Positions 4,682 through 21,244 of a DNA stretch of 64,000 bases are shown here, one piece after another. A program made the position numbers and the translations under genes. Source of the DNA: Verrucomicrobiota bacterium (GTDB taxonomy: Bacteria; Verrucomicrobiota; Verrucomicrobiia; Opitutales; Opitutaceae); contig JAUWBF010000011.1 in assembly GCA_030601755.1 (NCBI GenBank), positions 1 through 64,000 of the forward strand. Direction: 5' to 3'. The notes beneath the pieces are model-generated. The model was not told the DNA's origin. It did not search any database and worked only from the letters and a program-made list of their open reading frames with translations. Numbering within the stretch: the stretch's first letter is position 1; each line of letters opens with the position of its first letter.

Positions 4682-4706
4682 GGGGGGCGGGGACGGAGTG
4701 TCGTGG

Positions 4707-5849
4707 TCAGGGCAGCGTGCGGCGCAGGACCTCCACGGCGTGGCCGTGGGGAATCTTTTCCTGCTCAAGCAGGATGTGGTTCGTGTGCAGGCGTTGGTAG
4801 ACGAGTCGTTCGGGTTCGGTGAGATTAGCGGTTTCCTCGTAGGCGGCGGCTGGCGAAGGCGTTTGGTAGTCGGCGTAAGCCGTCAGGGTTGGTTCATCCA
4901 TGAGCACGCTTTCGGCTTGCGGAAACATGCGGCGGAGGCGGGACAGGATGTGAAAGCCGTGGACGTCGAGGTCGCCCCAGTAGACGAGCCGGCAGCGATG
5001 CAGCCACGGGACGGTCGCCAACAAGGCCGTGGCGTTGCCCGCGCCCCAGATCGCGATGGTTCGCGACAAGGTCGGGAGGGTGAGGAAGGTGAGTTTGTTT
5101 TCGACGATCAGCACGCTCTGGTCCGTCCACCCGAGGGCGCGAAAGCGGGACAGTGGCGTGGCGAGATCATCCACGGGCACGCCGAGGGTGGGGCCGAGGG
5201 AAAGGTCGAGCAGGCGCAGGCGAACGAGGGATTCTTCGCTTCGCAGGCCGAAGCGCGCCTCGAAGGTCTCGGTCGCGGGATCGATGGCGGATTCGGGCAG
5301 CAGCGCGTCGAGCAGGCTGCGGAGGATGGGGCGATGGTTCTCGATAAACTTGGTGTCCACGGCGACCGGCAGCTGGCGGGCGTAGAGGGCGGGGCGGGGA
5401 TTCGCCAGCAGGTAGCCGCAAACGAGCAGCAGGCGCGGCCAGGCATCGGCGTAGTCGGTGAGCCGGGGCGCGTGCGAGGCGAGCCAGCCTGCAAGCTGCG
5501 GGAAACGTTCTAGGGTTAGGCGAAGGTTTTCCCGGAAGCGGCGGACTTCGGCGGCCTTGCCGAGCATGCGCAGGTAGTCGGCTTCCGTGGCGAAACTGAC
5601 GCAGGCCGGCAGGCGTTGGCGTCCCCAGCGGCGGGTGTTTCTCTCCTCCCACGCGATGGTGTAGCCGAACTCAGTTTCGGCTTGGGCGAGCGCGGTGATC
5701 TCGCGTTGGAGCACGCTCCAGTCGGCGGTGGGCGACGGCTGGCCGAAGCGGATGGGCATCGGGAACAGGTCTTCGCCGGCGGCGATGGCGCGGAGGACGC
5801 CGGGGTATTTGCGCAGCCCGAGCGTCTGGATGTCGGCGGGACTAAGCAT
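4707..5849 (-). CDS. jetD: Wadjet nuclease subunit JetD
   Basis: The 380-residue protein matches the JetD layout: an N-terminal DUF3322 region and a C-terminal DUF2220 Toprim domain related to topoisomerase VI subunit A. The Toprim acidic residues are visible in VLIVENKLTF and in YWGDLDVHGF (D-x-D). In characterised Wadjet systems JetD cleaves circular plasmid DNA after extrusion by the JetABC SMC complex. Its ATG (5849) overlaps the jetC stop by 8 bp, so the two are probably translationally coupled. It is the last jet gene, 25 bp before cas4-cas1, in the same apparent transcript. Confidence 0.92.
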   Translation of the reverse strand: MLSPADIQTLGLRKYPGVLRAIAAGEDLFPMPIRFGQPSPTADWSVLQREITALAQAETEFGYTIAWEERNTRRWGRQRLPACVSFATEADYLRMLGKAAEVRRFRENLRLTLERFPQLAGWLASHAPRLTDYADAWPRLLLVCGYLLANPRPALYARQLPVAVDTKFIENHRPILRSLLDALLPESAIDPATETFEARFGLRSEESLVRLRLLDLSLGPTLGVPVDDLATPLSRFRALGWTDQSVLIVENKLTFLTLPTLSRTIAIWGAGNATALLATVPWLHRCRLVYWGDLDVHGFHILSRLRRMFPQAESVLMDEPTLTAYADYQTPSPAAAYEETANLTEPERLVYQRLHTNHILLEQEKIPHGHAVEVLRRTLP

Positions 5850-8800
5850 CGGGAGCGGTGGCCGGCGGCGTGGTCACCTGGGTGGCGGGCGACTGTGCGC
5901 GGGCGGCCTCGTAGTCGGCGCGGGAGGCGCGGCTGAGGCGGGAGTTGTTGAGGTCCGGATTGGTGGCGAGGTGGAAGCTGTCCACGTAGTCCTCGACGAT
6001 GCGGCTCTTGGCGTCGAAGGGGCTGACGACGACGAGTTGCAGACCGAGTTTTTGAAACAGATCGAGGGCGCGTCGCGAGTTGGTCTCGTCGGTGCGGGCG
6101 AAGGCCTCGTCGATGACGACGAGGCGAAAGGTGTCGGCCTCGCCGGCGGCGTCGAGCAGGCCGTATTGGGCGGCGATGGCGGACGCGAGGATGGTGAACG
6201 CGAGTCGCGCCTTTTGTCCGCCCGACTTGCCGGCGGAGCCGGAGTAGTAGTTGGCCTCGGTGCCGTCGGCGTCGTGGAGTTCGCGCACGGCGTAGTCGAA
6301 CCAGTTGCGGGCGTCGGTGACGCGCTTGGTCCAGACGTCGTCGCTCTCGAATTTCGCGATGAGCTCCCGGATGCGTCCGAAGACGCGGAGGCGATCCTCG
6401 GGCGAGGGATTGAGGCCGCCGGAAAAGCAGTCGCGAAGTTCGGCGCGGAAGCGGCGGACATCGTCGGTGCGGGTGGCCTGGGCGACGATCTGGACGTGGG
6501 TGGATTCGGTGAAGGCGATGGAGCGGAGCGCGCCGTTGACGGTGGCGATGCGGTCTTTGATGTCCTGCTCGTGGCCCTCCAGCTTGCTATTGAACATGGC
6601 CAGGTCGCCAACGAGGTTGGTGCCGAGGTAGGCTTCGAAGCGCTGACGGTGCTGCTGGAGTTCCTGCTGCTCGATTCGGTCGCGCAGGGCGACAAAATCG
6701 TCGGCGAAACGCGGCTCGGCCCGCAGGTCCGCGGTGTAGCCGGGGTGGTCGCGCAGGAAGTGCGTCATCGGCTCGATCATGGCCTGCTCGGCGTCGCGCA
6801 TGATCTTTTCCTGCTGGGAGATTTTTGAACGCAGCCGGCCTTGGACCTGTGAGCGAGTGTGCTCGACATTGGCCAAGGTGAGCTCGGCCACGGCCTGCAA
6901 TTCGGCGAACGCGGGCTCGTGCGGGGCGGGGTCGAAGTCGGCATGCTCGCCGAGGGTTTCGTTGAGGTCGGCGAGCAGGTCGTCGAGGGCGCGCAGGCTT
7001 TTTTTCAGATCGCCGATGCGTTGCTGCACGCGGTTGTTTTCGTCGGCGTTGACGTCGAGGCGCTGTTTGACGGCGTCGAGTTGCTCGCGCAGAGCTCGGA
7101 GCGACTCGGAGCTGGCCTCGAGGTCCTGCTTTTCCTTTTGCAGACGCGACATCTCGGTCTGCACGGAGCGGGTGTCGATGTCGGCGAAGGATTCGCACGC
7201 GAGCAGCGTGCCGATGGCGGCGAGGCGGGTGGCGAGGGCCTTGAGCTGGCGGTCGAGGTCGGCGACCTGTTTCGCGGCTTGCTCGGCGCGGGAGTGGGCG
7301 CGGTTGAACTCGGTGGTGAGCGCCTCGATCTTTTCCTCGATGGACCAGCCGAGCACGTAGCCGGAGGCGTCGTTGACGGCGCGGCGGTCGTCCTTCACGT
7401 GGCGCGAGGAGCCTTCGCGGACGAGGCCTTCGCGCGTGATGCCGTAGTCGACTTCGCGCAGGTGCTCGATGGAATCGCAGCAGTGGTGATGAAAACGCCG
7501 GACGACCTCGGCCTGCAGCCATGCGGCCAGGGGATTTTCTTCGCGGAAACGCAGCCGGGCGGGCACGCGGGCCGGATCGTGCAACACATCGGAACGCGGG
7601 GCGGGCACGGAGATCGGCACGCGGTGGAAGGTGAAGCGCAGACCTTGGTTGCGGTGGTCCACCAGGCGTCGGCCGTTGATGAAGTCGGCGACGGCGAGGT
7701 AGTGGCGCTCGGGCACGAGCAGCGACACGCCGAGCGAGTGCAGGAGGCGCTCGATGGCGCCGGTCCATTCGCGGTGCTCGGTGCGCACCTCGATGAGCTC
7801 GCCGGCGAAAGGCAGGTCGTCGGCGGGTATGCCGGTCGCGGCGACGAGCGCGGAGCGAATGGCCAGAAACTCGCGGGGAATGAGCACGCGGTGATCGCGC
7901 AACGTCTGGAGTTCGTCGGCGAGGCGACCGCGCAGGTCGAGCGCCTGTAGTTGTTCCATGGATGCGCGCGTGCGGGCTTCGTCCTTCTCCTTGCGCTCGA
8001 TCTCGGTCGGACCGCGTTCGGCGCGCATCTGGGTTTGCAGGCGCGTGAACTGCGCGGCGTCCTCGACGGGTTGCGAGAGGCCGAGGGTTTTGAGCTGGGC
8101 CTCGAACAGGCGGAGTTCTTTCGCGCGGGATCTGTGACGTTCCTCCAGAGTCTTCAGCTCTTGGTCGATGCGGCGGATGCTCTGCTCGGTGGTGTCGGCG
8201 GCGATCTCCTGAAGCTTGCGATCATGCTCCTCCTGGTCGCGTTGGCGCTGGACCTTGAGTTCCTCGGCGCGGGCCTCGGCGACGGTGCGCTGTTCGTCGA
8301 GGCGGGCGGCCTCGGCGTCGGCGAGCGCGCGGTGGCGGTGGGCGTAGTAGATCGGCGATAGGTCGAGCACGGCCTGGTGCGCGTCGCGCAGGGCCGCGGC
8401 GTCGCGGGTGTTCTGGCGATGGGCGACGATGGGGGCGAGGGCCGCGAGCTGACGCTCGGCGCGGTCGATGGCCTTCCAGCTCGCGTCGAGCTCGTGGAAA
8501 TGGGGGCGCAGGGTTTTGTGGATGAAGTCGAGGATGTCCGAGCCTTCCAGCATGTGGCGGCGGACGAAGGGATTGATTTCGGAAACCTCCTTCACGCCGA
8601 TCGCTTGGTTGAAGACTTCGAGGGCGGCTTCGCCGGGCAGGCCGAGCCGACCGCGGAAGACCTCGGCGTAGGCGCTGAAACTGTCGAACACGTCGAAGCC
8701 GCGCTGGCGGAGGGTGCGCTTGAGATCGCGGCTTTGGCCGAGGTCGGCGAGGTCTTCGCGGATGGTGTGGTCGCGGCGGGCGACGGCGTAGGTCTCGTGG

Positions 8801-9246
8801 ATCTTGTCGTTCAGTTCCCAGAGGATCTGCACGAGAGTGAAGGCCTCGCCGGCGTGCTGGTTGGCAAAGACGCCGAGGAGGATGGAAAACTCTCCGGGGG
8901 CGCGCAGGTTTTGCGGGATGGCCGCGGCGGAATCCTCCTGGCTGGCGGTGGCCCAGGTGCCGCGCACGTAGCTGCGGCGGGTGCGGTCGCGGCGCTTCTG
9001 TTCGCCGGAGGCGTCGTTGTAATTGAGCAGGCGGGGCGGGACGAGCAGCGTGCGCAGGGCGTCCACGGCGGTGGATTTGCCGCTGCCGTTTTCGCCGACG
9101 AGAAGCGTCCAGCGTTCGTCGGGGAAGAGGCTGGAGACCTTGCCGTGGAAGGTGCCCCAGTTGTGCATTTCGAGGCGGCGCAGGCGCCAGCCGGGGAGCG
9201 GACGGGAGCCGTCGGCGAGGGGGAAATCAATTTCCAGGTTCGGCAT
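5842..9246 (-). CDS. jetC: Wadjet SMC-like ATPase JetC
   Basis: The 1134-residue protein is an SMC/MukB-like ATPase. Walker A is GENGSGKST at 51-59. There are two long coiled-coil stretches (about 270-430 and 640-830, rich in E, R, Q and L) around a central hinge-like part, then an ABC signature (KSGGQKARLAF) and Walker B (LVVIDEAFARTD) near the C-terminus. With JetA and JetB it forms the DNA loop-extruding motor that recognises small circular DNA for JetD. Its start overlaps jetB by 20 bp and its end overlaps jetD by 8 bp. No catalytic motif appears lost. Confidence 0.95.
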   Translation of the reverse strand: MPNLEIDFPLADGSRPLPGWRLRRLEMHNWGTFHGKVSSLFPDERWTLLVGENGSGKSTAVDALRTLLVPPRLLNYNDASGEQKRRDRTRRSYVRGTWATASQEDSAAAIPQNLRAPGEFSILLGVFANQHAGEAFTLVQILWELNDKIHETYAVARRDHTIREDLADLGQSRDLKRTLRQRGFDVFDSFSAYAEVFRGRLGLPGEAALEVFNQAIGVKEVSEINPFVRRHMLEGSDILDFIHKTLRPHFHELDASWKAIDRAERQLAALAPIVAHRQNTRDAAALRDAHQAVLDLSPIYYAHRHRALADAEAARLDEQRTVAEARAEELKVQRQRDQEEHDRKLQEIAADTTEQSIRRIDQELKTLEERHRSRAKELRLFEAQLKTLGLSQPVEDAAQFTRLQTQMRAERGPTEIERKEKDEARTRASMEQLQALDLRGRLADELQTLRDHRVLIPREFLAIRSALVAATGIPADDLPFAGELIEVRTEHREWTGAIERLLHSLGVSLLVPERHYLAVADFINGRRLVDHRNQGLRFTFHRVPISVPAPRSDVLHDPARVPARLRFREENPLAAWLQAEVVRRFHHHCCDSIEHLREVDYGITREGLVREGSSRHVKDDRRAVNDASGYVLGWSIEEKIEALTTEFNRAHSRAEQAAKQVADLDRQLKALATRLAAIGTLLACESFADIDTRSVQTEMSRLQKEKQDLEASSESLRALREQLDAVKQRLDVNADENNRVQQRIGDLKKSLRALDDLLADLNETLGEHADFDPAPHEPAFAELQAVAELTLANVEHTRSQVQGRLRSKISQQEKIMRDAEQAMIEPMTHFLRDHPGYTADLRAEPRFADDFVALRDRIEQQELQQHRQRFEAYLGTNLVGDLAMFNSKLEGHEQDIKDRIATVNGALRSIAFTESTHVQIVAQATRTDDVRRFRAELRDCFSGGLNPSPEDRLRVFGRIRELIAKFESDDVWTKRVTDARNWFDYAVRELHDADGTEANYYSGSAGKSGGQKARLAFTILASAIAAQYGLLDAAGEADTFRLVVIDEAFARTDETNSRRALDLFQKLGLQLVVVSPFDAKSRIVEDYVDSFHLATNPDLNNSRLSRASRADYEAARAQSPATQVTTPPATAPDA

Positions 9247-9802
9247 GATCGAGGAGGCGTTGCTTGATGGTTTCGAGTTCGGAGGGGGCGATGCGGGCCT
9301 TGACGATGCGCATGATTTCGAAGGCGTCCTGACCGCCTGCGGTGAGCGGGCGGATGAAGCCGAGGTCGTCGAGGCTCTTGATGGCGGCGTCGATGAGTTT
9401 GAAATCGCGGACCTGGTTGGTGGTCTCCGGGAAGAAGTCGGCCACGAGGTCGCGGAGCTGCTCCCGGGTCTTGATCAGGCGCGGGCTGTCGTCGGCGGAC
9501 GAGTCGAAGCGCAGGAACTCCTCGCGCAGGACGACGAGCAGGAGCGTGGCGGGGTAGCTGAGCGGTCGCCGCTGGACGAGGCGCGGCACACGTTCCTCGC
9601 CCTCGGGTTCGAGTTGGCGGATGAACGCGTAGCCCTCGCCTTCGTCGAGCACCAGTTCCTGACCGATGTCGCGAAAGTAGCGTTGGACCTCGTCGACATG
9701 ACCGCGGAGGGTGAGCCAGTCCTCGGTGTCCTCGCGATAGACGGGTTCGCGAAAGAGGCGGGCTTTGACGAAGGCGACGGGCGGGAAGTCGGTGGGATTC
9801 AT
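9227..9802 (-). CDS. jetB: Wadjet kleisin-associated subunit JetB (DUF4194)
   Basis: The 191-residue protein fits JetB/DUF4194, a MukE-like winged-helix subunit: about 190 residues, acidic, with the segment LSYPATLLLVVLREEF and a C-terminal LIDAAIKSLDDLGFIRPL. It bridges the JetA kleisin and the JetC ATPase in the Wadjet complex. The ATG at 9802 shares an ATGA overlap with the jetA stop, the typical sign of translational coupling. A much longer frame-compatible extension upstream was rejected because it runs through the jetA coding region. Confidence 0.92.
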   Translation of the reverse strand: MNPTDFPPVAFVKARLFREPVYREDTEDWLTLRGHVDEVQRYFRDIGQELVLDEGEGYAFIRQLEPEGEERVPRLVQRRPLSYPATLLLVVLREEFLRFDSSADDSPRLIKTREQLRDLVADFFPETTNQVRDFKLIDAAIKSLDDLGFIRPLTAGGQDAFEIMRIVKARIAPSELETIKQRLLDHAEPGN

Positions 9803-11241
9803 GAGCGGGAAAAAAGGAGCATCGGCACGCGCCAGCGCTGCGGGTTTTCGGGCGGACCCCAGACGACGGTCTCCTCGTCTGTATCCGAAATATAATGACG
9901 ACGTTCGCCGGCGGCGACGATGAGGTAGCCGATGAGTTCCATCACGCCCTCGCTGAGCGGGAAGCGGGCGAGCACGTCGGAGAGCATGATCGGACTGCGG
10001 TCGGCGAGGCAGGCGTCCACCTGCTGGCGAAGTTCGGCGAGGCGGATTTCCGGCAGGTTGTGGAAGCGTTGCATGTCGGCCAGCGAGAGCCGGCCGGTCT
10101 CCTCCTCGATGGGACCGCGGGCGGAGGCGGACTCCGGTGCCTGCCAAAACGGTCGGCTGAGACCGGCGAACAATTGCGGGAAGGTCGGCACCGCGAAAAA
10201 ATCGGATTCGGTCGGCGGCCGTTCGCGCACGGCGAGGGCGGCCTGGCAGATTTCCTGCAAAAGCTCGCCGACGCGGCGGCGCTCGGCGAGGTGGGTGGTG
10301 TCGAGCACGCGGCGCAGGTTGGTGGACAGGCGCTGATGCGAGGCGACGACGCACTCGCCCTCCTGCAGCAGGTGGCGGAGGAAGTGACGCAGCAGGGCGT
10401 TGTCGCGGTGGGCGGGATCGAGCGCGGCGAGAGCGCGGACCTGCTCGAGTTGTTCGTGGAAACGGCGCTGCTTGTCGGACGAGAGCAGGAGTTCCCAGAA
10501 CGCGAAAAAGCTCTGGCCCTGTTCCGACTCGCGCAGGGCGTCGTGCGAGTCGAGCAGGTGGGCGACGATGGCGCCCTTGGTCACGCCGGGGCGGGCGTGG
10601 TGCTCGGCGATCTCGTGGGCGATGCGCTTGAAGTTGTGCTCGACCTGTCGGAAGTCGGCGAGGAGTTCGCGGGCCGTCGCGAGGATGTGGGCGTAGCGTT
10701 CGTTGATCTGGACGGGCGTGAACGCCTCGGCGCGACCGGTGGCCTTGATGCGGTCGATCTCGGCGTGGATGGCCTCGGCTTCGGCGAGCAGTTGTTCGAT
10801 GCGCCGCGTGGGATCGTCGGAGGAGTATTTGAGGATTTCATCGAGCCCCGAGAAGACGCTCTCCAAACGGGACTCGGTGCCCACGAACTTGGTCTGACGC
10901 ATCGACTCCAACCACAGCAGCGCCTTCTCGGAGCCGGTGGTGAGTTCGTAGAGTGGCTCGTCGGTGTCGGGTCCATAGTAGCGCCGGAGAAAACCGTGCT
11001 CGGGCGCGCACCAGTCGGCGAGGTAGTCGGCGGCGGTTTTCGGGTAGGCGAGGGGGGCGGATTCGCGATGATCGTCGAGCTCGACGTCGAGCAACGCCTG
11101 CACCTGGCCCTCGGGCAGGGAGACGCGGTGGTCTTTTTTGAAGACGCGCCAGAGGAAGCCGAGGATGAGCGGGGCGTTGTTGGCGCGCAGGAGCCGGACG
11201 GCGGGGTGGTCGAGCAAGAGTTGAAGCTCGTGGTGGTCCAT
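9799..11241 (-). CDS. jetA: Wadjet kleisin subunit JetA (DUF3375)
   Basis: The 480-residue protein matches DUF3375/JetA, the MukF-like kleisin of Wadjet. The N-terminus (DHHELQLLLDHPAVRLLRAN, LILGFLWRVFK) and the helical middle with ELTTGSEKALLWLESM are typical of the family. It links the JetC heads and organises the motor. It is the first jet gene; upstream by 27 bp is only a short gene remnant (11269-11550), then an S23 gene and a SIMPL gene, so the promoter is probably that of the cas operon or hidden in the 11550-12175 region. Confidence 0.93.
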   Translation of the reverse strand: MDHHELQLLLDHPAVRLLRANNAPLILGFLWRVFKKDHRVSLPEGQVQALLDVELDDHRESAPLAYPKTAADYLADWCAPEHGFLRRYYGPDTDEPLYELTTGSEKALLWLESMRQTKFVGTESRLESVFSGLDEILKYSSDDPTRRIEQLLAEAEAIHAEIDRIKATGRAEAFTPVQINERYAHILATARELLADFRQVEHNFKRIAHEIAEHHARPGVTKGAIVAHLLDSHDALRESEQGQSFFAFWELLLSSDKQRRFHEQLEQVRALAALDPAHRDNALLRHFLRHLLQEGECVVASHQRLSTNLRRVLDTTHLAERRRVGELLQEICQAALAVRERPPTESDFFAVPTFPQLFAGLSRPFWQAPESASARGPIEEETGRLSLADMQRFHNLPEIRLAELRQQVDACLADRSPIMLSDVLARFPLSEGVMELIGYLIVAAGERRHYISDTDEETVVWGPPENPQRWRVPMLLFSRS

Positions 11242-12901: not shown

Positions 12902-14497
12902 TCAGGTGACGGCAGCAAACAGACCGGTGCCGGAGAACTTGCCGCCGCCGATGCAAAGCGGGCCAGACATGGGAAGGGGCTGGCCATGCTCATCGCGAAA
13001 CTGGATGCGGACGTGCAGTTTTCGGTAGCGGCGGTGTTGATCGCCGGTCATGTAGTGCGAGGCTATGTCCGTGCCGGGCAGATAACCGGAGCCGCGCCAC
13101 TCAATGGCGGCGTGATGGGCGATAGAATCGGAATAGCCGGCTTGGCGGAGGGCTTTGCGCAGGAGTTGGTCGATGCGTTGGTCGAGTTTGGCGACGAGCG
13201 CGTTTTTTTCTTCGGCCGTGAGGCCAGAGTTTTCGCGGAGGCGTTGGCGGAGTTTTCGCGGGTCGTCGTAACCGGGCAGGATGACCGGGGTGACAGTCGC
13301 CCAAGTGGAAGACGTGGCCAGATAGTTCTCTTTGGTGAGCTTATCGGAATCGGGGAGGCGCGACAGCAGGGCCGCGGGTTTACCGTCTTTCTCGTCGATC
13401 AACTCCAGGCCGTCCAACCGTTGGGCAAGGCGTTGGAATTCGTCGCGCGGCATCGGACCGTGTGTCGTGACCAGGACGCGGCGAATCGCACCGACGACGT
13501 GCGCCCTGCCTTCGCCTCGGGGTTCGATGCTGGGGAGCGGCAGGAACAGGAGCCGGGTGGGCGATGGATTTGTGGAGGCTTCCTCGGTGTGTCCGTGGAC
13601 AAGACGCGCGATTTGCGCGTCGTTCCAGCCGAGTGAACGGGCGATGTCCGCACCGCCCGCGACATGGCGCAGCATGGCGGCGACGTGCAGGCCGCGACGG
13701 ACCGGGTCGAAGGCGCGGAAGCCGGAATCGTCCAACTGACGCAGCGCGAAAATGGCGAAGGGGGGGCGGATGGGGTCGGACGCGCGGCGGTAGGTAAGGA
13801 CGCGGAAGCGTTCAAGCGGCGGCACCGGGCGGAAGAACTGGCTGCCATCGGGTGCCGTGGGAAGGCGCGCGAGAAACGCTTGATGACGATGCTCCAAGGC
13901 GGCGAGCGTGCCGCTCACGGGAACGCGAAGCGGGGCAATGCCGCCCTCAGCCGGAAACCATTTTTCGGTGTCACTGCCGGGGGCGGTTGCGGGAGGTGCC
14001 TCGATCAGGTCGGCGTCGGCCACGACTAGGTTGACGCCCCAGCCGAAAGCGGAAATGGCTCGGGCGAGTTGACGGATTTGGTCGGGAAATTCCGGCGGTG
14101 GTTCGTCGGTGAGTTCCCACAAGTAGGCGACAATGGCATTTTCGGGGAGACGGGTGGGACGAATTTCTTTGGCGGCCCGATAGCTGGCTATGTCGTTGTC
14201 GCGTCCGCTGGACCACGATTTTGCGACAAGATCTCCAACGTTGTTTGGGACAAATGTCTTGAAGCCGTAACGCGGTTGGATGGCGGTGGGTTTGCTGGCG
14301 ACGACGGTGGGCGGCGGCAGTTTTTCGAGACGCTCCAGCGCGGGCACGTAGGCGCCCATGCCGAGGCGAGCGGCGGAGTTGGTGAGTGTTTGAAACAGGC
14401 GCAGCGGCGAGGGTGGCCATTCGGGTTCGCCGCCGTCGCCACGTCCGTCAAACTCGTCCAGCAGGAAGCGGACGGAGATTTGTAGGAGGGTGGGCAT
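12902..14497 (-). CDS. csb2: Type I-G Cascade subunit Csb2 (Cas5-Cas6 fusion, GSU0054 family)
   Basis: The 531-residue protein belongs to the GSU0054/Csb2 family, a Cas5-Cas6 fusion of type I-G/I-U. The N-terminal RAMP strand (LLQISVRFLLDEFDG) with EWPPSPLRLFQTL is characteristic. The C-terminus has a glycine-rich loop (LCIGGGKFSGTGLFA) typical of Cas6-like RAMPs, and there is a histidine pair in SIAHHAAIEWRGSG. It should cleave the pre-crRNA at the repeat hairpin, hold the crRNA and cap the 5' end of the Cascade backbone. It starts 24 bp after csb1, in the effector part of the operon. Confidence 0.92.
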   Translation of the reverse strand: MPTLLQISVRFLLDEFDGRGDGGEPEWPPSPLRLFQTLTNSAARLGMGAYVPALERLEKLPPPTVVASKPTAIQPRYGFKTFVPNNVGDLVAKSWSSGRDNDIASYRAAKEIRPTRLPENAIVAYLWELTDEPPPEFPDQIRQLARAISAFGWGVNLVVADADLIEAPPATAPGSDTEKWFPAEGGIAPLRVPVSGTLAALEHRHQAFLARLPTAPDGSQFFRPVPPLERFRVLTYRRASDPIRPPFAIFALRQLDDSGFRAFDPVRRGLHVAAMLRHVAGGADIARSLGWNDAQIARLVHGHTEEASTNPSPTRLLFLPLPSIEPRGEGRAHVVGAIRRVLVTTHGPMPRDEFQRLAQRLDGLELIDEKDGKPAALLSRLPDSDKLTKENYLATSSTWATVTPVILPGYDDPRKLRQRLRENSGLTAEEKNALVAKLDQRIDQLLRKALRQAGYSDSIAHHAAIEWRGSGYLPGTDIASHYMTGDQHRRYRKLHVRIQFRDEHGQPLPMSGPLCIGGGKFSGTGLFAAVT

Positions 14498-14521: not shown

Positions 14522-15658
14522 TCACTCGTTCGCCGACGTTTCGGCGGGGGTGTCCACGGTCGCTGAAGCGGCTTTGCCCTTGGCGGCCTTCTTGGCCTTT
14601 TTGTCGTCGCCGCCCTTGAGGTCGGCTTTGGCTTTGGCGGCGTCGAAGGGGACGGTCTTGCTCTCACCGACGCCAAACTCGGCGGCGGCGGCTTGGGCGA
14701 AGGTGAGGGCGTCTTCGTGGGTGATGGCAGCGTCGGCGCGGGTGCCGTCGGCATGCACGGTTTTGAACTCGAACTTCTTTTCGGAGTCCGGGTCGCGGAC
14801 GAGGATCGTGCCTTGGCGATAGTATTCGAGCGGCAGCTTGGTGAACGCGACGAGAGCAAGGCCGAGAATGTAGCGGCGGAGCTTGGTGGTGTTTTCCGGT
14901 GTGTCGGCGCGGAGCAGTTTCAGCGCGGAGAGGGCGAGCACGGCGTCGCGGCGAATGCCGCCATCGGCGATCACGCCGCCGTGGGCGCCGGTGGATGGCA
15001 CGTGGGTGAAGCCTGCGGTGGAGCGACTCTCCTTGTCGTTCTTGTCGGTGATGGGTCCGAGCAACGATGCGTCGTCATAAATCGGGTTGGGCGAGCTGCT
15101 GCCGCCCGCCCAGTATTGGGCCGAGCGAGTGAGCTTGCGAACATCGTAAGCGCGGATGGTGGAGGCGATGAGGCGCGGGAGCTTGGCCTGGCTATCGCGG
15201 GAATCCCACACACCAAAGACGAGTGAGGTGGGGGCGATTTTCGCGAGCGGGACGGCGTTGCCTTGGAGGACGGCGGCGAACGCGGCCTTGAGGTCGTCTT
15301 GGAGCGCGGAGCAGCGGGCGAGGGCGTCGCCGGCGCGGTGTCCGGCGTCGAGCAGGTTGATTTCCTTTTCGCCCGCCTTGATCACGATTTGGGGAACGAG
15401 GGCGGAGTAGGGCTCGTCTTTGAACAGCGGCTCGATGCGGTTGGCTTGCGAACCGACGCTGTCGATCAGGCAGACGTTGCGGCCGGTGCGCTCACGTTGA
15501 TTCTCGTAGTCGATGTTGTAGCCGACATCGGCGTAGGTGGCGGGAAAGAGCACGGCGTCGGCTCCTTCCACGGGGATAAGGTGTTCGCGAACGACGAGGG
15601 CGGCGGGGCCGTCGGTGGCGAGGAGGTGGTCGAACTGGGCGAGGCTGGTGTTGCTCAT
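14522..15658 (-). CDS. csb1: Type I-G Cascade backbone Csb1 (Cas7, GSU0053 family)
   Basis: The 378-residue protein matches GSU0053/Csb1, the Cas7-type backbone that polymerises along the crRNA spacer. Recognisable family segments are VLFPATYAD, DSVGSQANRIEP, SLVFGVWDSRDSQAKLPRLIAS and DGGIRRDAVLALSALKLLRA. The last 45 residues are Ala/Lys/Thr-rich and probably disordered. It is 51 bp downstream of the cas3-csb3 gene and 24 bp upstream of csb2. No csx17 gene, the large subunit of the better-studied I-G branch, is found next to it. Confidence 0.93.
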   Translation of the reverse strand: MSNTSLAQFDHLLATDGPAALVVREHLIPVEGADAVLFPATYADVGYNIDYENQRERTGRNVCLIDSVGSQANRIEPLFKDEPYSALVPQIVIKAGEKEINLLDAGHRAGDALARCSALQDDLKAAFAAVLQGNAVPLAKIAPTSLVFGVWDSRDSQAKLPRLIASTIRAYDVRKLTRSAQYWAGGSSSPNPIYDDASLLGPITDKNDKESRSTAGFTHVPSTGAHGGVIADGGIRRDAVLALSALKLLRADTPENTTKLRRYILGLALVAFTKLPLEYYRQGTILVRDPDSEKKFEFKTVHADGTRADAAITHEDALTFAQAAAAEFGVGESKTVPFDAAKAKADLKGGDDKKAKKAAKGKAASATVDTPAETSANE

Positions 15659-15709: not shown

Positions 15710-18700
15710 TCAGAGCGGCTTGGCCGGGAGGAAGGCCTTGTGCTTGCGCTGACTGGTTCGATACCAGCTCTCGAAGCGGAATGATGGCTGCGGGTGCGCG
15801 TCCGTGAGCCCATTGATGGCGGCGGCGAGCAACGCGATGGGGACGGGTGCTTGCCAGAGATGGTAGTCGAAGAGGCGGTCGCCGGACGGCTCGGGAATGG
15901 CTCGTTGGAGACCGACAAGCGTGAGGAACTCAGCGGCGGGGGCGGCGAGGGTTTCTAGTTTGAGGTCGTTGGTGGAAAAACCGACATCGCGAGCATCGGA
16001 GTTGGGGCCGCGGTTGGCGTCGAAGTAGAAGGGCTCGACTTTTTTGGCCGGGTTTTCGGGCGCGTAAGCGATCCTCAGGCTGTAGAGTATTTTATCTCCG
16101 TCCTCGGGCAGAATAGCCTTTTGCATGGCGCGGGCGATGCGGGGGGCTTCCATCGTTCCTGCCCAGACTTTGAGGGAAGAGGTGGTGGGCAGGGAGGTTT
16201 TCCACCAATCAACACGGAGATCGAAAGGGGTGTTGATCGCGATTGGCGAAGCGGTGGCGTCGTTTGGATCGAGGGCGGTGATTCCGGCGGCGGTGATTTT
16301 CTTGAGGAGTTCGCTGAGCGGCGGGGTGTTCGCGAGGTGAAAGCGGCACCCAGTGTCGGTTTGCTCGAACCATGTGACGGCGTCAGGGAATAGGGTTGGA
16401 CGGGTGGCGAGTTCGAAGAGGCCGCAGCAGGCGAAGTAGTGGCCGGGGTTGGCGGGGTTGACCGCGAGCGTTGCGGTTGGCGTGGGAGTAGGCGTGTTGG
16501 CGACTTGTGTAGCGGGAACCGAAGCCGGGGGGTGATCCTTGAGTGAGGATGGCGCGGAGGGAGCGACGATGCCGGCGCTGGCGGCGTAGTCGGCGGCACG
16601 GAGGAGTGATTCCAACCAGGCTAGGCCCCAACGTCCGAAGCGCTTTTGAAGGCTGGCGAAGCGGCGCGGAGTGTCGGCAGCGACGACGGGAGCCGCACTA
16701 TTTCCGGAATAGTCGAAGGCTTCCTCGACGGGGAAGTATGGGCGGGCACGCCCGTGGTGTGCGGCGACGAGGTGCAAGGTAATCTCTCGTTCGGTTTCGG
16801 TGAGGCTATTAAAATCCGGGTCGTGCTCCGCATCGAGGAGCGAACCGAACTCGTGTCGGTAATATTCGGCGACGTTGCGTGAACGCATCTTCCCGCCTGA
16901 CTTCGCGAAGATGGTGGCCGGATTGGCGGGGTCGTAGGCGAGGTTGCCGAGGTTGCGTTGCCAGGCGCGGCGGTTCTTCCCGAGGTCGTGCAGGCGTGCG
17001 GCGACAACAAGACAGCGCCCCAAATCGGGTTCGCCGGCTGCGGGGGCTTCAGGGAGAAGCTTGGCGGCGAGCGATGCGGCGTTGGCCGTGACGGCGTCGG
17101 TGTGTTTATCGAGGGTTTCGGCGTCGGAGGCGGCGACCTTGCGCTTGGCGGTGGGGTCTTCCAAGGGAGCGAACCAGAGGAGGTAATTTGGTTCGTCGGC
17201 GTCTTCGTCGGAGATGATGCGCGAAAAATCGGCGGAGTTGTCGGGCGTGTTGCTTTCGCGACGCGCGATGTCGGAGCAATCGACGGCGGGGGTTTTGGTT
17301 GAAATCGAAAACATCCCCATCGGCTCGAGGCCGCCGAGACTGGCGGGGAGGAGAAGGGTGGAGCCGGTGATGCGCTCTTTCTCGCGCTTGAGTTTAGCCT
17401 CTTCTTCGTAGGAGCGGTCTTTCTTGGGCTTCGCCGACAGGGCAAACGGAGCGAGTGGAAGTTTTTCCACGGCTCCAAATTCGTCGATCAGCCAAGCGTC
17501 GGGGAGTGGGTTTTCCGACTGAAGGCGTGCGGCTACAAGATCCCCCAGCGTGTCGAAGATACGATCGGTGGTGTCGCGCAGGAGTTCGCGGGGACGCAGT
17601 GGGAAGGTTTCGAGGAAGCTTTCGAGGGCGTGGTCGGGGAGGTGGATGAAGTCGAGGTCGTCGCGCCAAGCGAGATGTGTCTCAGGCGGTTGCCACTCGG
17701 ATTCGCCGTGAAGGTAGGGGGCGACGGGGGGACGGGCGGCGATGGGTTTGCGAATGGATGTGAGCGCCCAAGCGTCGAATTGAACATCCCTGGCCTCGCG
17801 AGGAGTCGGCGGCGGTGAAAATGCGGCGGCGCGAGCGGCGGTCGGGAGCGTGTCGAGCGCGGCGGGGCTGGCGGAGCCATCGAGTTGTCGGAGCAGTGTG
17901 AGCGTGCGTTCGCGGGCGGCTTCGATGGGTTTGGCGGAGTCGAACTTGGTTTCGTGAACCACGGTGACTTCGCTGTCGTCGCAGAGGCCGAAGCGGTTCA
18001 CGCGGCCGAAGCGCTGGGCCATGCTTTCGTAAGTGGAGAGATCGCACACCAAATCGTCGGCGGAGAGATTGACGCCGACTTCGCCGGCGCTGGTGGCCAC
18101 GAGGAATACCGTTCCGGTGGGCGGTTCGATGTGCTTGGCGCGGTCTTTTTTGGGAAGGAAGCGTTGGAACACTGGGTTCTCGTAAGCCAGCGCGTCGCGT
18201 TCCTTGCCGCGCATGGTCCCGGTGAGCGCGGCAACCATGCCCTTGTGCGCTCCTTTGTTCAGATATTCGAAGACCTTGAGGGCAGTGGCGACGGAGCGGG
18301 TGAAAACGAGGACGGCGCGACCCGCGGGCTTGGCCTTCGCGAGGGGCGCGAGTTTTTCGTCCAACGTGTCGGCCTCATCGAGCGGGATCAGCGAGAGCCG
18401 TTTGGCGGCATGGATACGTTTTTGGACAGTGTCGTTTTCTTGGTCGGCGTCGGTGAGTGTGAACGGCGCGGAGTCGTTTGCGTTATCGGCGCGGTTAGTC
18501 GCGGTGAGGGCGATGACATGCAGCTTTCGTAGTTCAGCTTCCGCTTTCTGCGTCGCGACGATGGTTTCCAGCAGGGACTGAAAGCAGGGCTCAAGGTGAG
18601 CCTCGTCGTGAACGAGAAGGACGTCTTGTGCGAGGAAGCCGGCGTGAAGCGGACGGGTTTTAAACCCGCGAGTATAGCGACTGAAGAGGAGACCGCTGCC

Positions 18701-19159
18701 GATCATGTCCACGGTGCCGACGACGACGGCGGGGCGGGCGGGGTCGGCGCACCATTCGCCGTTGTCGGCGAACTCGCCGCGTAGTGTGCTTATGGCGAGG
18801 GGCGGTGCGTCGGGCGCGGGCAGCGGAAGCGCGCAGAGTTTTGTGAGTGTTTCTCGGATTTCGGAGAGTTCGGGTTTCCGCTTCAGCGCTTCGCGGAGGC
18901 GCTCGACCTCGGCGGTGGTCTGGTCAACCACTGTGCGGCGATTCACGACGTAAACGAGGCGGCGTGGTGTGGTGTCGGGCTTGGTCGCCAAAGCGCAGAG
19001 CCAGATTGCGATGACCGATGTTTTGCCGAGCCCGGTGGGGATGGCGGCGGAGGCGGGGATGTCGCCGGCGATGAATTTGGCGAAGAGTGAGGCCTGCCAC
19101 GGAAAAGGGCGCGAATCGCTCAGGGCCTCGAAGGTTTTGGGGAAGTCGTGCGGCTGCAT
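15710..19159 (-). CDS. cas3-csb3: Cas3 helicase-nuclease fused to Csb3 (Cas8-like)
   Basis: One 1149-residue frame combines three parts. The helicase (about 1-600) has Walker A (PTGLGKT, 41-47), DEAH at 185-188 and the later motif VGVNLSADDLVCDLSTYESM with QRFGRVNR. The HD nuclease (about 718-865) lies C-terminal to the helicase, as in I-U Cas3, with RLHDLGK near 722-728 and HLVAAHHG near 797-804. After a Pro/Thr-rich linker (about 866-899), residues 900-1149 match the GSU0052/Csb3 (Cas8c-like) opening NPGHYFACCGLFELATRP. In Geobacter cas3 and csb3 are separate adjacent genes; here no stop, restart or Met separates them. The fusion would tether the degrading nuclease to the Cascade large subunit. 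It starts 12 bp after the cas3 remnant. Confidence 0.9.
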   Translation of the reverse strand: MQPHDFPKTFEALSDSRPFPWQASLFAKFIAGDIPASAAIPTGLGKTSVIAIWLCALATKPDTTPRRLVYVVNRRTVVDQTTAEVERLREALKRKPELSEIRETLTKLCALPLPAPDAPPLAISTLRGEFADNGEWCADPARPAVVVGTVDMIGSGLLFSRYTRGFKTRPLHAGFLAQDVLLVHDEAHLEPCFQSLLETIVATQKAEAELRKLHVIALTATNRADNANDSAPFTLTDADQENDTVQKRIHAAKRLSLIPLDEADTLDEKLAPLAKAKPAGRAVLVFTRSVATALKVFEYLNKGAHKGMVAALTGTMRGKERDALAYENPVFQRFLPKKDRAKHIEPPTGTVFLVATSAGEVGVNLSADDLVCDLSTYESMAQRFGRVNRFGLCDDSEVTVVHETKFDSAKPIEAARERTLTLLRQLDGSASPAALDTLPTAARAAAFSPPPTPREARDVQFDAWALTSIRKPIAARPPVAPYLHGESEWQPPETHLAWRDDLDFIHLPDHALESFLETFPLRPRELLRDTTDRIFDTLGDLVAARLQSENPLPDAWLIDEFGAVEKLPLAPFALSAKPKKDRSYEEEAKLKREKERITGSTLLLPASLGGLEPMGMFSISTKTPAVDCSDIARRESNTPDNSADFSRIISDEDADEPNYLLWFAPLEDPTAKRKVAASDAETLDKHTDAVTANAASLAAKLLPEAPAAGEPDLGRCLVVAARLHDLGKNRRAWQRNLGNLAYDPANPATIFAKSGGKMRSRNVAEYYRHEFGSLLDAEHDPDFNSLTETEREITLHLVAAHHGRARPYFPVEEAFDYSGNSAAPVVAADTPRRFASLQKRFGRWGLAWLESLLRAADYAASAGIVAPSAPSSLKDHPPASVPATQVANTPTPTPTATLAVNPANPGHYFACCGLFELATRPTLFPDAVTWFEQTDTGCRFHLANTPPLSELLKKITAAGITALDPNDATASPIAINTPFDLRVDWWKTSLPTTSSLKVWAGTMEAPRIARAMQKAILPEDGDKILYSLRIAYAPENPAKKVEPFYFDANRGPNSDARDVGFSTNDLKLETLAAPAAEFLTLVGLQRAIPEPSGDRLFDYHLWQAPVPIALLAAAINGLTDAHPQPSFRFESWYRTSQRKHKAFLPAKPL

Positions 19160-19171
19160 GGGGGGAATGAC

Positions 19172-19321
19172 TCAGGCGGCGGTTTTGCCCAGGCCGGTGG
19201 GGATGTTGATGAGCTGGGATTCGCAGGGGCGGCCGGCGGTGTCGCCGGCGAGGCGGCGTTGGTAGGCGTAGGGGGCGTTGCCGGTGGCGTTGCGGAAGAC
19301 GTCGTCGAAGGTGGCGGGCAT
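19172..19321 (-). pseudogene. Truncated cas3 head (49 codons) at the start of the cas operon
   Basis: The frame begins MPATFDDVFRNATG, continues APYAYQRRLAGDTAG and ends LINIPTGLGKTAA followed directly by TGA. This is the N-terminus of a type I-U/G Cas3 helicase up to and including Walker A, and it differs in sequence from the head of the full cas3 that starts 12 bp downstream (PFPWQASLF, AAIPTGLGKTS). It is the first coding sequence after the predicted cas promoter. Either it is the scar of a second, lost cas3, or it is kept as a leader peptide whose translation is coupled to cas3-csb3. No continuation of this second helicase is found downstream. Confidence 0.75.
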
Positions 19322-19378
19322 GGTGGTCGGACTGCGCTTGACTGGCTTGTTGTGATGAATGTTAGTTCACTCGTGGCA

Positions 19379-19407
19379 ATTTTAATTCCTCTCCAAACCA
19401 CTCCTAT
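19379..19407 (-). promoter_or_regulatory. Putative cas operon promoter
   Basis: On the minus strand TAAAAT (19379-19384) matches five of six bases of a sigma-70 -10 box. The -35 window 17 bp upstream (19402-19407) has a weak match. The area is the most AT-rich stretch in the first 20 kb. It lies about 55 bp upstream of the first start codon (19321). No Shine-Dalgarno site precedes 19321 or 19159. Confidence 0.4.
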
Positions 19408-19416
19408 ATCACTGAA
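19396..19416 (-). promoter_or_regulatory. Partial protospacer with TTC PAM in the cas promoter
   Basis: Read on the minus strand, 19416-19414 is TTC and 19413-19396 is AGTGATATAGGAGTGGTT. This matches the first 18 bases of the pseudo-spacer at 19446-19463 at 15 positions. The mismatches fall at 6, 8 and 12; 6 and 12 are among the positions flipped out and unpaired in type I Cascade complexes. TTC fits the TTN PAM reported for the Geobacter I-U system. The site covers the predicted -35 region of the cas promoter, so Cascade binding here should repress it. Confidence 0.55.
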
Positions 19417-19431
19417 GTATTCAGTCTGGTA

Positions 19432-19519
19432 GGCCCCGTTGAAGCAGTGAGAGAGGCGTGGTTGTCATTGGCCGAAAGGTCATTTCTCCGCGTGCTTCGG
19501 CGCGCGGCTCCTTTTGTCG
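19432..19519 (+). ncRNA. crRNA-like regulatory RNA (degenerate repeat-spacer-repeat)
   Basis: On the plus strand 19432-19445 (GGCCCCGTTGAAGC) equals the last 14 bases of the CRISPR repeat, including the 8-base 5' handle. A 38-bp pseudo-spacer follows (19446-19483), then a degenerate repeat (19484-19519) identical to the array repeat at about 22 of its first 28 positions. In its hairpin, CCGCGTGC pairs with GCGCGCGG. One T-A pair of the original stem has become G-C by two changes and a C-G has become a T-G wobble, while the UUCG loop is kept. Pairing thus survives although sequence drifts, which argues for a selected, Csb2-processed RNA. A possible -10 for it (TATATC, 19405-19410) overlaps its own target. 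It resembles CreR/CreA RNAs described for other type I systems; that assignment is an inference. Confidence 0.6.
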
Positions 19520-19532
19520 CGGTTCTTGCCAA

Positions 19533-19549
19533 CGCGGCCCCGTTGAAGC
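19533..19549 (+). repeat. Third CRISPR-repeat fragment
   Basis: CGCGGCCCCGTTGAAGC is identical to the last 17 bases of the array repeat (canonical orientation). It stands 13 bp before the antitoxin start codon and is not followed by a further repeat. It may be the 3' half of the second pseudo-repeat displaced by a small insertion, or a relic of an old array in this position. Confidence 0.7.
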
Positions 19550-19561
19550 AGGGTTTGGGGC

Positions 19562-19792
19562 ATGAGCACGCTTGTGGAGATCGAAGAAGCCATCGCGAAA
19601 CTGCCGGAGGCGGAGTTTCGGATGTTGCTGGCGCGTTTGAAGGAGCGCGATGCGGAGGCGTGGGATCGGCAGATCGAGGCCGCGGTGAAAGACGGTCGCA
19701 TGGACGCCCTTTATGCCCGGCTGGCCGGCGGAGATACGGAAGAGTCGAAGGCACCGCTCGAAGAAGTCCTCGACGACCGCAAGCTTTCGTAA
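19562..19792 (+). CDS. Antitoxin-like protein of a RelE-type pair
   Basis: The 76-residue acidic protein (TLVEIEEAIAKLPEAEFRML, then DRQIEAAVKDGRMDALYA) is mostly helical and resembles short antitoxins encoded before RelE/ParE-like toxins. The ATG at 19562 is directly downstream of the crRNA-like element, and the 3' end overlaps the toxin frame. The acidic antitoxin would bind and neutralise the toxin and probably repress the operon. Assignment rests mainly on the neighbour. Confidence 0.7.
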   Translation: MSTLVEIEEAIAKLPEAEFRMLLARLKERDAEAWDRQIEAAVKDGRMDALYARLAGGDTEESKAPLEEVLDDRKLS

Positions 19793-20015
19793 GGCGCTGG
19801 CCGATCTGCCGCCGGAGATGCGGTTGCTGGCCCGCAAGAATTTCAAGCTGTGGTTGCGTGATCCCCGGCATCCTTCGTTGCATTTCAAAAAGGTCGGCGG
19901 TTATTGGTCCGCGCGAGTGGGGGAGGATTATCGGGCCTTGGCGATCAGCCGGCCGGATGGCGTGGAGTGGTTTTGGATCGGCACTCATGCGCAATACGAC
20001 CGATTGATCGGCTAG
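19713..20015 (+). CDS. RelE/ParE-like toxin
   Basis: The core LPPEMRLLARKNFKLWLRDPRHPSLHFKKVGG with WSARVGEDYRALA and FWIGTHAQYDRLIG is a RelE/ParE-superfamily toxin, probably an mRNA interferase. The full frame from the ATG at 19713 gives 100 residues. The conserved domain begins around SFRKALADLPP (codon 25), so part of the N-terminus may be untranslated or a non-ATG start may be used; no better ATG exists. It overlaps the antitoxin gene by about 80 bp if the 19713 start is right. Confidence 0.78.
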   Translation: MPGWPAEIRKSRRHRSKKSSTTASFRKALADLPPEMRLLARKNFKLWLRDPRHPSLHFKKVGGYWSARVGEDYRALAISRPDGVEWFWIGTHAQYDRLIG

Positions 20016-20176: not shown

Positions 20177-20201
20177 CGAAACGGCTCCGCCGTTCCGCTA
20201 C
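20177..20201 (-). repeat. GTAG-headed REP-like palindrome overlapping the WYL gene stop
   Basis: On the minus strand it reads GTAGCGGAACGGCGGAG and then GCCGTTTCG, with arms CGGAACGGC and GCCGTTTCG. Its head supplies the TAG stop codon of the WYL regulator. Near-identical copies lie at 21489-21513 and 22892-22916. Confidence 0.7.
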
Positions 20202-21244
20202 GGGAGCAGGGCGGAGACGTGGGTTTCCAAGAGGCGGCGGGCGGAGGCGGCGACGGCTTCGCGGAGCTGGGCGGGGGCGAGGACCTCGACACGGCCTCCG
20301 CAGGCGAGGATGCGGCGCTCGATGTCCACGAGGCCGTTGAGCAGGAGCGTCACCTCGGCGCCGCCGTCGGGGAGGTCGCGGTGGGTCTGCGAGGCGTGCC
20401 ACGGGGTCTCGCGGATGTAGGCGGCGGCCTCGGCGTCGACGCGTAGGCGGATCTCGTGGTCGGCCTCGCCGGCGAAACGGCCGAGGTTGCCGCGCAGGCG
20501 GGCGCGAATCTCGGCGGCGGGGGGCGGATCGAAGACTCGACCGGTCGTCTCCATTTTTTCGATACGGGCGAGCAGGAAGTGGCGCGGGGCTTTTTTGGCG
20601 ACGTCGTGCGCGACGAGCACCCAGCGGTGTTCGAGGTGGGCGAGGTGCAGGGGGCGCACGCGGCGGGTCTCGGCGCGGGGGGACCTGGGTTTGCGGTAGG
20701 CGATCTTCAGCTCGCGGCGGGCGCGGAGATGGTCGAGGAGGGCGGCGAAGTGGCGGTGTTCGGCGTCGGCGCGGGTGTCGCCGGCGTCGGGTTGGTAAAG
20801 CCAGTCGGCGAGGGTGTCGGCGGGGAGTGAGACGGTGTCGCCGACGGCGCGGGCGATCTTGCCGAGGGCGGCGGTGAGGGCGGCGCCGAGCGGGGTGCCG
20901 GCCCAGGCGGCGAAGGTGCGCCCGGCGAGGGCGAGCGCGAGGGCCTCGTCGGCGTCGAGCCGGAGGTGTTCGCAGAACTTGTAGGGGCGGGTGTAGCGGT
21001 AGCCGTGGGCGGCTGCGTCCCAGATGATGGGCGCGTGGTGCTCGTCACGGAGCCGCTCGATGTCGCGCTTCAGCGTGCGATGGGAAATTTCCCACTCCTG
21101 CTCGCGGGCCAGGCGGACGAGGTCGACGGCTTTACCGGAGCCGAGAATGGCGTCGAGCCGGACCATGCGGCGGACGGCGGCGGGGCCGGCGGGACGGCGT
21201 CTGCCGGCATCGGGCGGGGACGTGGGAGGCGTCTTGGGCGTCAT
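20198..21244 (-). CDS. WYL-domain transcriptional regulator
   Basis: The 348-residue protein has an N-terminal winged helix-turn-helix (about 20-85, RMVRLDAILGSGKAVDLVRL, ISHRTLKRDIERLRDEH) and a WYL domain (about 165-250) with AYRKPRSPRAETRRVRPLHL. A C-terminal WCX-like part follows. WYL regulators often sit in defence islands and control CRISPR, BREX or other systems, with a nucleic acid or nucleotide ligand. The ATG at 21244 is chosen over longer options because upstream sequence is repeat-like. It lies close to the cas promoter region but is separated from it by the toxin-antitoxin pair. Its TAG stop comes from a REP-like element. Confidence 0.85.
   Translation of the reverse strand: MTPKTPPTSPPDAGRRRPAGPAAVRRMVRLDAILGSGKAVDLVRLAREQEWEISHRTLKRDIERLRDEHHAPIIWDAAAHGYRYTRPYKFCEHLRLDADEALALALAGRTFAAWAGTPLGAALTAALGKIARAVGDTVSLPADTLADWLYQPDAGDTRADAEHRHFAALLDHLRARRELKIAYRKPRSPRAETRRVRPLHLAHLEHRWVLVAHDVAKKAPRHFLLARIEKMETTGRVFDPPPAAEIRARLRGNLGRFAGEADHEIRLRVDAEAAAYIRETPWHASQTHRDLPDGGAEVTLLLNGLVDIERRILACGGRVEVLAPAQLREAVAASARRLLETHVSALLP

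Follow-up and report, generated by a model that had tools for sequence, protein, structure and literature searches.

A degenerate mini-CRISPR with a retained Csb2-type hairpin as a probable autoregulatory element of a type I-G cas operon

In the bacterium from which the window (the whole stretch of 64,000 nucleotides analysed here) derives, the type I-G CRISPR complex probably represses the very cas genes that encode it. As far as the sequence allows us to say, the guide of a decayed mini-CRISPR matches the neighbouring cas promoter region, so self-repression of the CRISPR genes is probable. More specifically, we consider it likely that this element is a CreR-type cas-autoregulating RNA of the type I-G system, with the hairpin of the second ectopic repeat, psiR2, as its 3' repeat. 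The observations that carry this reading are the architecture of the locus, the guide-target match, its recurrence and periodicity across type I-G loci and the covariation of the hairpin.

Architecture of the type I-G locus and its mini-CRISPR

The window contains a type I-G CRISPR-Cas system, with Cas3g, Cas8g, Csb1, Csb2 and an array of 36-nt repeats bearing an 8-bp hairpin (Table 1). The array repeat, read on the crRNA strand, is GACTCCGCGCTCTTCGGAGCGCGGCCCCGTTGAAGC, for which 28 further matches were found on contig C133 of the same genome, and the array spacers are 35-41 nt long. The operon of cas3-cas8g2, csb1 and csb2 is transcribed divergently, away from a degenerate repeat-spacer-repeat unit that adjoins the cas genes and lies outside the array. 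The last 14 nt of its first repeat, psiR1, GGCCCCGTTGAAGC (19432-19445), are identical to the array repeat and, in the whole window, recur outside the array only at 19536-19549; the 8-nt 5' handle GTTGAAGC (19438-19445) is supplied by psiR1. From psiR1 to psiR2, which carries the hairpin, the distance is exactly that of one spacer (38 nt). Since the 3' half of psiR1 is intact and the spacer is of array size, the unit is read as psiR1 (handle kept), guide and psiR2 (hairpin kept), and by the type I-G processing rule the predicted guide RNA would be about 74 nt long (19438-19511, 5' GUUGAAGC). A second candidate guide after the third handle (AGGGTTTGGGGCATGAGC) had no PAM-flanked match near cas.

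Table 1. Features of the type I-G locus and of the adjoining mini-CRISPR (positions in the window)
Feature	Position	Strand	Remarks
CRISPR array	26-2014	minus	28 identical 36-nt repeats in the window
csb2 (Cas5-Cas6 fusion)	12902-14497	minus	TIGR02165
csb1/cas7g	14522-15658	minus	PF09617
cas3-cas8g2 fusion, type I-G	15710-19159	minus	TIGR02621 + TIGR04106
Short ORF, a Cas3g N-terminal remnant that stops at Walker A	19172-19321	minus	first ORF downstream of the target
Target of guide nucleotides 1-18 (AGTGATATAGGAGTGGTT)	19396-19413	minus	PAM TTC at 19414-19416
First ectopic repeat, psiR1	19410-19445	plus	5' handle kept, hairpin half decayed
Guide (spacer) psiS, 38 nt, AGTGAGAGAGGCGTGGTTGTCATTGGCCGAAAGGTCAT	19446-19483	plus	
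Second ectopic repeat, psiR2	19484-19511	plus	hairpin at 19488-19507; predicted Csb2 cut after 19511
Third copy of the 3' half of the repeat, GGCCCCGTTGAAGC	19536-19549	plus	12 nt 5' of the antitoxin start codon
Putative antitoxin, 76 aa	19562-19792	plus	by position 5' of the ParE-like gene
ParE-like toxin	19713-20015	plus	scores above the PF24732 gathering threshold; exact start uncertain

A search with csb2 over 57 relatives and a scan of genome contigs gave relatives of at most 76% and no orthologue of the window mini-CRISPR. No ectopic handle was found upstream of cas3 in the closest relatives with sequence available there (L034, L038, L039 and L064), the sequence of L038 ending 757 bp upstream; this absence counts against the CreR reading.

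Truncated Cas3g N-termini such as the short ORF of the window occur also in L038 (about 572-750), L035 (12412-12690), L101 (10611-11348) and L049 (from 8480), where they either begin the cas operon or adjoin the mini-CRISPR element; they look like scars of cas3 replacement. Genes for Wadjet-type JetA1, JetB1 and JetC1 are found inside the type I-G locus of the window (about 4700-11241), between the adaptation genes and csb2, and L038 has long ORFs in an arrangement that resembles it. A WYL-domain regulator (20198-21241, minus strand), which may be an additional controller of the locus, is encoded just past the toxin-antitoxin pair. For the 76-aa putative antitoxin of this pair a profile search returned no family match.

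The guide-target match and its recurrence

Within the first 18 nt, guide and target differ only at guide positions 6, 8 and 12, and when every sixth guide base, which is flipped out in Cascade, is left out of the scoring, the match is 14/15. A TTN PAM and an effector with 5+1 crRNA geometry are known properties of type I-G (PMC9638904), and here the seed is complementary to the cognate cas upstream region beside a TTC PAM. This site is the best match of the guide, besides the guide itself, on both strands of the 64 kb; the pattern of the match, which had been fitted to this site, has no second occurrence in the 3.55-Mb genome. All controls required a TTN PAM within 19160-19445, and none of them, be it 27 array spacers, 4000 dinucleotide shuffles or 5000 random 38-mers, exceeded 12/15. 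The mismatch at guide position 8 counts against the CreR reading. The target lies 75 bp upstream of the first ORF; a scan of the target and cas upstream region found no sigma-70-like promoter, and the target may serve the divergent promoter of the toxin-antitoxin genes and the mini-CRISPR instead of the cas promoter.

The recurrence of this design was evaluated in 70 type I-G loci (1.18 Mb), from the same phylum plus a few others found by csb2. Scanning for a handle and a hairpin alone was too permissive, and a guide-target test was used instead: for each handle-like 8-mer RTTGAAGC outside arrays, with at most one mismatch, the next 18 nt were compared with TTN-flanked sites within 1.5 kb at a cut-off of at least 14/15, with arrays masked because array repeats inflate the shuffled-handle control. 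Such local matches followed 10 of 2011 ectopic handles and 4 of 113 exact ones, against 8 of 60,639 scrambled handles, an enrichment of about 38-fold for real handles. Leaving out positions 6, 12 and 18 gave 10 matches and each of the other phases 2-3; this phase comparison is independent of knowing the answer, and the 5+1 periodicity is the signature of Cascade-type pairing.

The elements at 14/15 or better are those of the window and of L035, L049, L057, L062, L078, L083, L101, L103 and L104; with L050 and L068 added at 13/15, 12 of the 70 loci have a mini-CRISPR guide matching upstream of a cas operon. Two further candidates at 13/15, L056 and L080, were not counted as good elements, and the one in L080 looks like a chance match. 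The distance from target to gene is 5-484 bp, the gene downstream being cas3, csb1, csx17 or the first gene of a cas3 operon. In L083 that first gene is yhcG, coding for a YhcG (DUF1016) nuclease (12966-14132), and in L104 it is a RhuM-like gene (1010-2502), the latter identified by eye, so that two type I-G cas operons start with such genes. In L049 and L068, which are related, position 15 has changed from A to G in guide and target alike. The hairpin is decayed in psiR1 and intact in psiR2 in nearly all elements, the exceptions being L049 and L068, with an intact psiR1 hairpin and no clear psiR2. In L049, at 8875 on the minus strand, a 12-nt repeat-like stretch (CCCCGTTGAAGC) lies within the coding sequence of a UPF0175 antitoxin.

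Conservation of the psiR2 hairpin

On the plus strand psiR2 consists of the stem halves CCGCGTGC (19488-19495) and GCGCGCGG (19500-19507) around a TTCG loop (19496-19499). The initial annotation had described this pseudo-repeat as keeping all eight stem pairs and the loop in spite of sequence change, and this is what we find: compared with the array stem, pair 7 has changed on both sides between T-A and G-C, and pair 6 has gone from C-G to a T-G wobble, although the direction of the stem change between array and element could be either. The lone psiR2 has a folding energy of -15.6 kcal/mol, compared with -16.2 for the array repeat. The probability that three random substitutions in the stem keep all eight pairs is 0.018, and therefore the psiR2 hairpin by itself is suggestive, not decisive; its context, that is the spacing and psiR1, adds far more than this single-hairpin statistic. 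Position 19511 lies exactly 4 nt past the base of the stem, a geometry that fits the predicted cut by Csb2, which in the type I-G system studied cleaves 4 nt 3' of the hairpin base (PMC9638904).

When folded, the whole element was no more stable than its shuffles (z -0.88), and in the isolated 74-nt guide (ViennaRNA) the handle GUUGAAGCA pairs with UGCUUCGGC of psiR2, leaving the psiR2 hairpin with a probability of 0.05, compared with 0.83-1.00 in nine other elements. This predicted folding in context argues against spontaneous formation of the psiR2 hairpin, and the low value could indicate a weak guide or a switch. Some array crRNAs from the same genome also have a low predicted hairpin probability, and for this reason the prediction from naive folding may be irrelevant to the Csb2-bound RNA.

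It had also been proposed that the hairpin is under selection as a Cas6-type substrate. Our data support this for Csb2, mainly by comparing type I-G mini-CRISPRs as a class and not by orthologues. In the nine retained 8-bp psiR2 hairpins 98.6% of the stem cells are paired, two-sided changes occur at 4 of the 8 stem pairs, and paired cells drop to 26-65% in slid control structures. The covariation score is 0.309, compared with 0.149 +/- 0.029 in shuffles (0 of 500 as high), in a test that may be inflated by relatedness among loci. An array is in reach at five loci: the hairpin is unchanged in one of them and in the other four differs from its own array stem by 3, 10, 2 and 4 substitutions with full pairing in all. 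A type I-G guide has to be held by Csb2 at just the position that the hairpin occupies, and we propose that the hairpin was kept, with compensatory change, because Csb2 must bind and hold the guide.

The stem difference could have been inherited from another repeat allele, the array having since been replaced, with no compensatory evolution in the element itself; type I-G stems vary among relatives, the change is not polarisable, and an older shared allele could account for part of the covariation signal. We regard this as possible but doubtful, since full pairing at varying divergence in 4 of the 4 differing loci fits ongoing constraint, and even under such an origin the hairpin would still be conserved. 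It is improbable that the hairpin was kept as an intrinsic terminator rather than as a Csb2 substrate. A TTTT run 3' of the stem (CTCCTTTTGT) does read as a weak terminator, L078 also has a T-run, and haloarchaeal creA may have exchanged psiR2 for a terminator (PMC8501985); but the T-run of the window is short, 0.7 such sites were expected by chance in the scan, most other elements keep the CCCC-TTGAAG of the repeat 3' of the hairpin, and the two roles are compatible. Least credible of all is a decaying remnant of an old array with hairpin and handle as functionless leftovers. The repeats are heavily degenerate and the window has a single such unit, but the guide fits the neighbouring promoter region much better than expected by chance, the hairpins covary, and about a dozen loci repeat the same design with PAM and 5+1 periodicity.

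Proposed circuit, toxin-antitoxin neighbours and known systems

In the CreR-type circuit we propose, transcription of the plus strand would yield an RNA with the psiR1 handle, the guide (19446-19483) and the psiR2 hairpin. Csb2 would bind this hairpin and, with Cas7g and Cas8g, form a Cascade that sits on the TTC-PAM site (19376-19413), in the region common to the cas operon and the mini-CRISPR. Pairing at the target is limited, so a block without cutting is expected: Cascade would stop transcription of the cas operon and probably also of its own RNA and of the downstream toxin-antitoxin pair. Repression would be lifted when array crRNAs or anti-CRISPRs draw Cascade away. We infer for the mini-CRISPR RNA its transcription, processing, binding, repression and response. 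Cascade guided by CreR represses its own genes from the cas upstream region until it is diverted (PMC12737573, PMC13131331), and in E. coli a PAM and about 5 seed bases are enough for binding (PMC5904413).

The neighbouring genes point to a second possible role. Five loci (L049, L050, L057, L062 and L068) agree in their gene order: the cas operon is followed by the target, a divergent PIN (DUF3368) toxin gene, the mini-CRISPR and a UPF0175 antitoxin gene, the L068 toxin and the L050 antitoxin being identified by sequence similarity. In L101 a DUF433 gene is present. Because toxin-antitoxin genes flank the shared region, the guide may control the genes to either side of a shared promoter and may have an addiction role. 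As a full alternative, the element would be an addiction unit like CreTA or CrePA, the guide of which mainly represses a small toxin RNA or the adjacent toxin-antitoxin genes. A toxin would then be freed when Cascade is lost or inhibited, and cas would be repressed only incidentally, through the divergent promoter that it shares. In those five loci the target lies between a cas gene and the divergent toxin gene, and the mini-CRISPR comes after the toxin, which is also the place of creA relative to creT, and precedes the antitoxin; in the window a ParE-like toxin and its putative antitoxin are found downstream of the mini-CRISPR. In the window, however, the antitoxin is 5' of the toxin, and target and psiR1 have no ORF between them; in L103 the guide targets csx17 with no toxin-antitoxin gene seen nearby, and the constant partner across loci is the cas operon and not a single toxin family. 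On balance we find the addiction unit unlikely, if less so than a terminator or a remnant. Still more speculative is a combined device, in which one guide would control both the cas operon and a type II toxin-antitoxin pair through their shared divergent promoter, and processing of the third half-repeat by Csb2 would tie the antitoxin mRNA to the supply of Cascade; were it true, cas autoregulation and addiction would be one device, with the half-repeat lying in the antitoxin leader in the window, L050 and L101.

Two observations on these genes are added. A third copy of the 3' half of the repeat lies 12-13 nt before an antitoxin-like start codon in three loci, the window, L050 (about 10933-10944) and L101. 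A kinase-like gene of about 168 aa adjoins a gene of about 85 aa in L035 (12965-13718), L078 (14334-15096), L083 (14386-15148) and L056, with only the small gene seen in L068 (11442-11708); the L078 pair had no Pfam match, and an undescribed toxin-antitoxin-like pair is possible.

If the CreR-type reading is true, RNA-guided cas self-repression also exists in type I-G, whose effector is the least studied of type I, and about 1 in 6 of the sampled loci, mostly from the same phylum, carries such an element. The natural guide-target pairs would then reveal which positions are important for repression by Cascade without cutting, the toxin-antitoxin cargo beside type I-G cas genes would be explained, and the hairpin would become part of a testable circuit, its compensatory changes having a physical reason in that Csb2 must hold the guide.

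Shmakov et al. in 2023 reportedly described mini-arrays in which the repeats stand alone and the spacers show partial complementarity to promoters of cas or cargo genes, and lone repeats with a spacer partly complementary to the cas promoter region are what the window element shares with them. The open literature names CreR in types I-B, I-E and V-A and none in type I-G, which the 2023 mini-array survey may list. The solitary phage repeats known as Racr (PMC10651486) likewise offer a repeat mimic able to occupy a Cas6-type protein, but Racr is a phage-borne inhibitor, whereas the window element is chromosomal and has a guide and a target. With CrePA, which pairs a KilA-N protein toxin with an RNA antitoxin (PMC12737573), the element shares a guide adjoining a protein toxin; no KilA-N toxin was identified here, the toxins being ParE-like in the window and PIN (DUF3368) elsewhere, with putative protein antitoxins of their own. 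CreA of the type I-B CreTA (PMC8501985, PMC9458426) has a seed that likewise pairs in blocks of 5 nt and leaves position 6 free, and the same decay pattern, in which psiR1 keeps the handle and psiR2 the Cas6 part (PMC9458426). Assignment to CreTA, with its type VIII RNA toxin, was rejected: target and handle are about 25 nt apart in the window, no RNA toxin was found, the neighbouring toxin gene there is protein-coding, the toxin-antitoxin genes are of the protein kind, and the target also flanks the cas operon. From CreR (types I-B, I-E and V-A; PMC13131331, PMC12737573) the present element differs in belonging to type I-G with Csb2, in a target region shared with divergent toxin-antitoxin or other cargo and in having an expression and a repressive action that are predicted; it has in common with it a mini-CRISPR that adjoins cas, a PAM, and a complementarity to the cas promoter region that is partial and never full-length.
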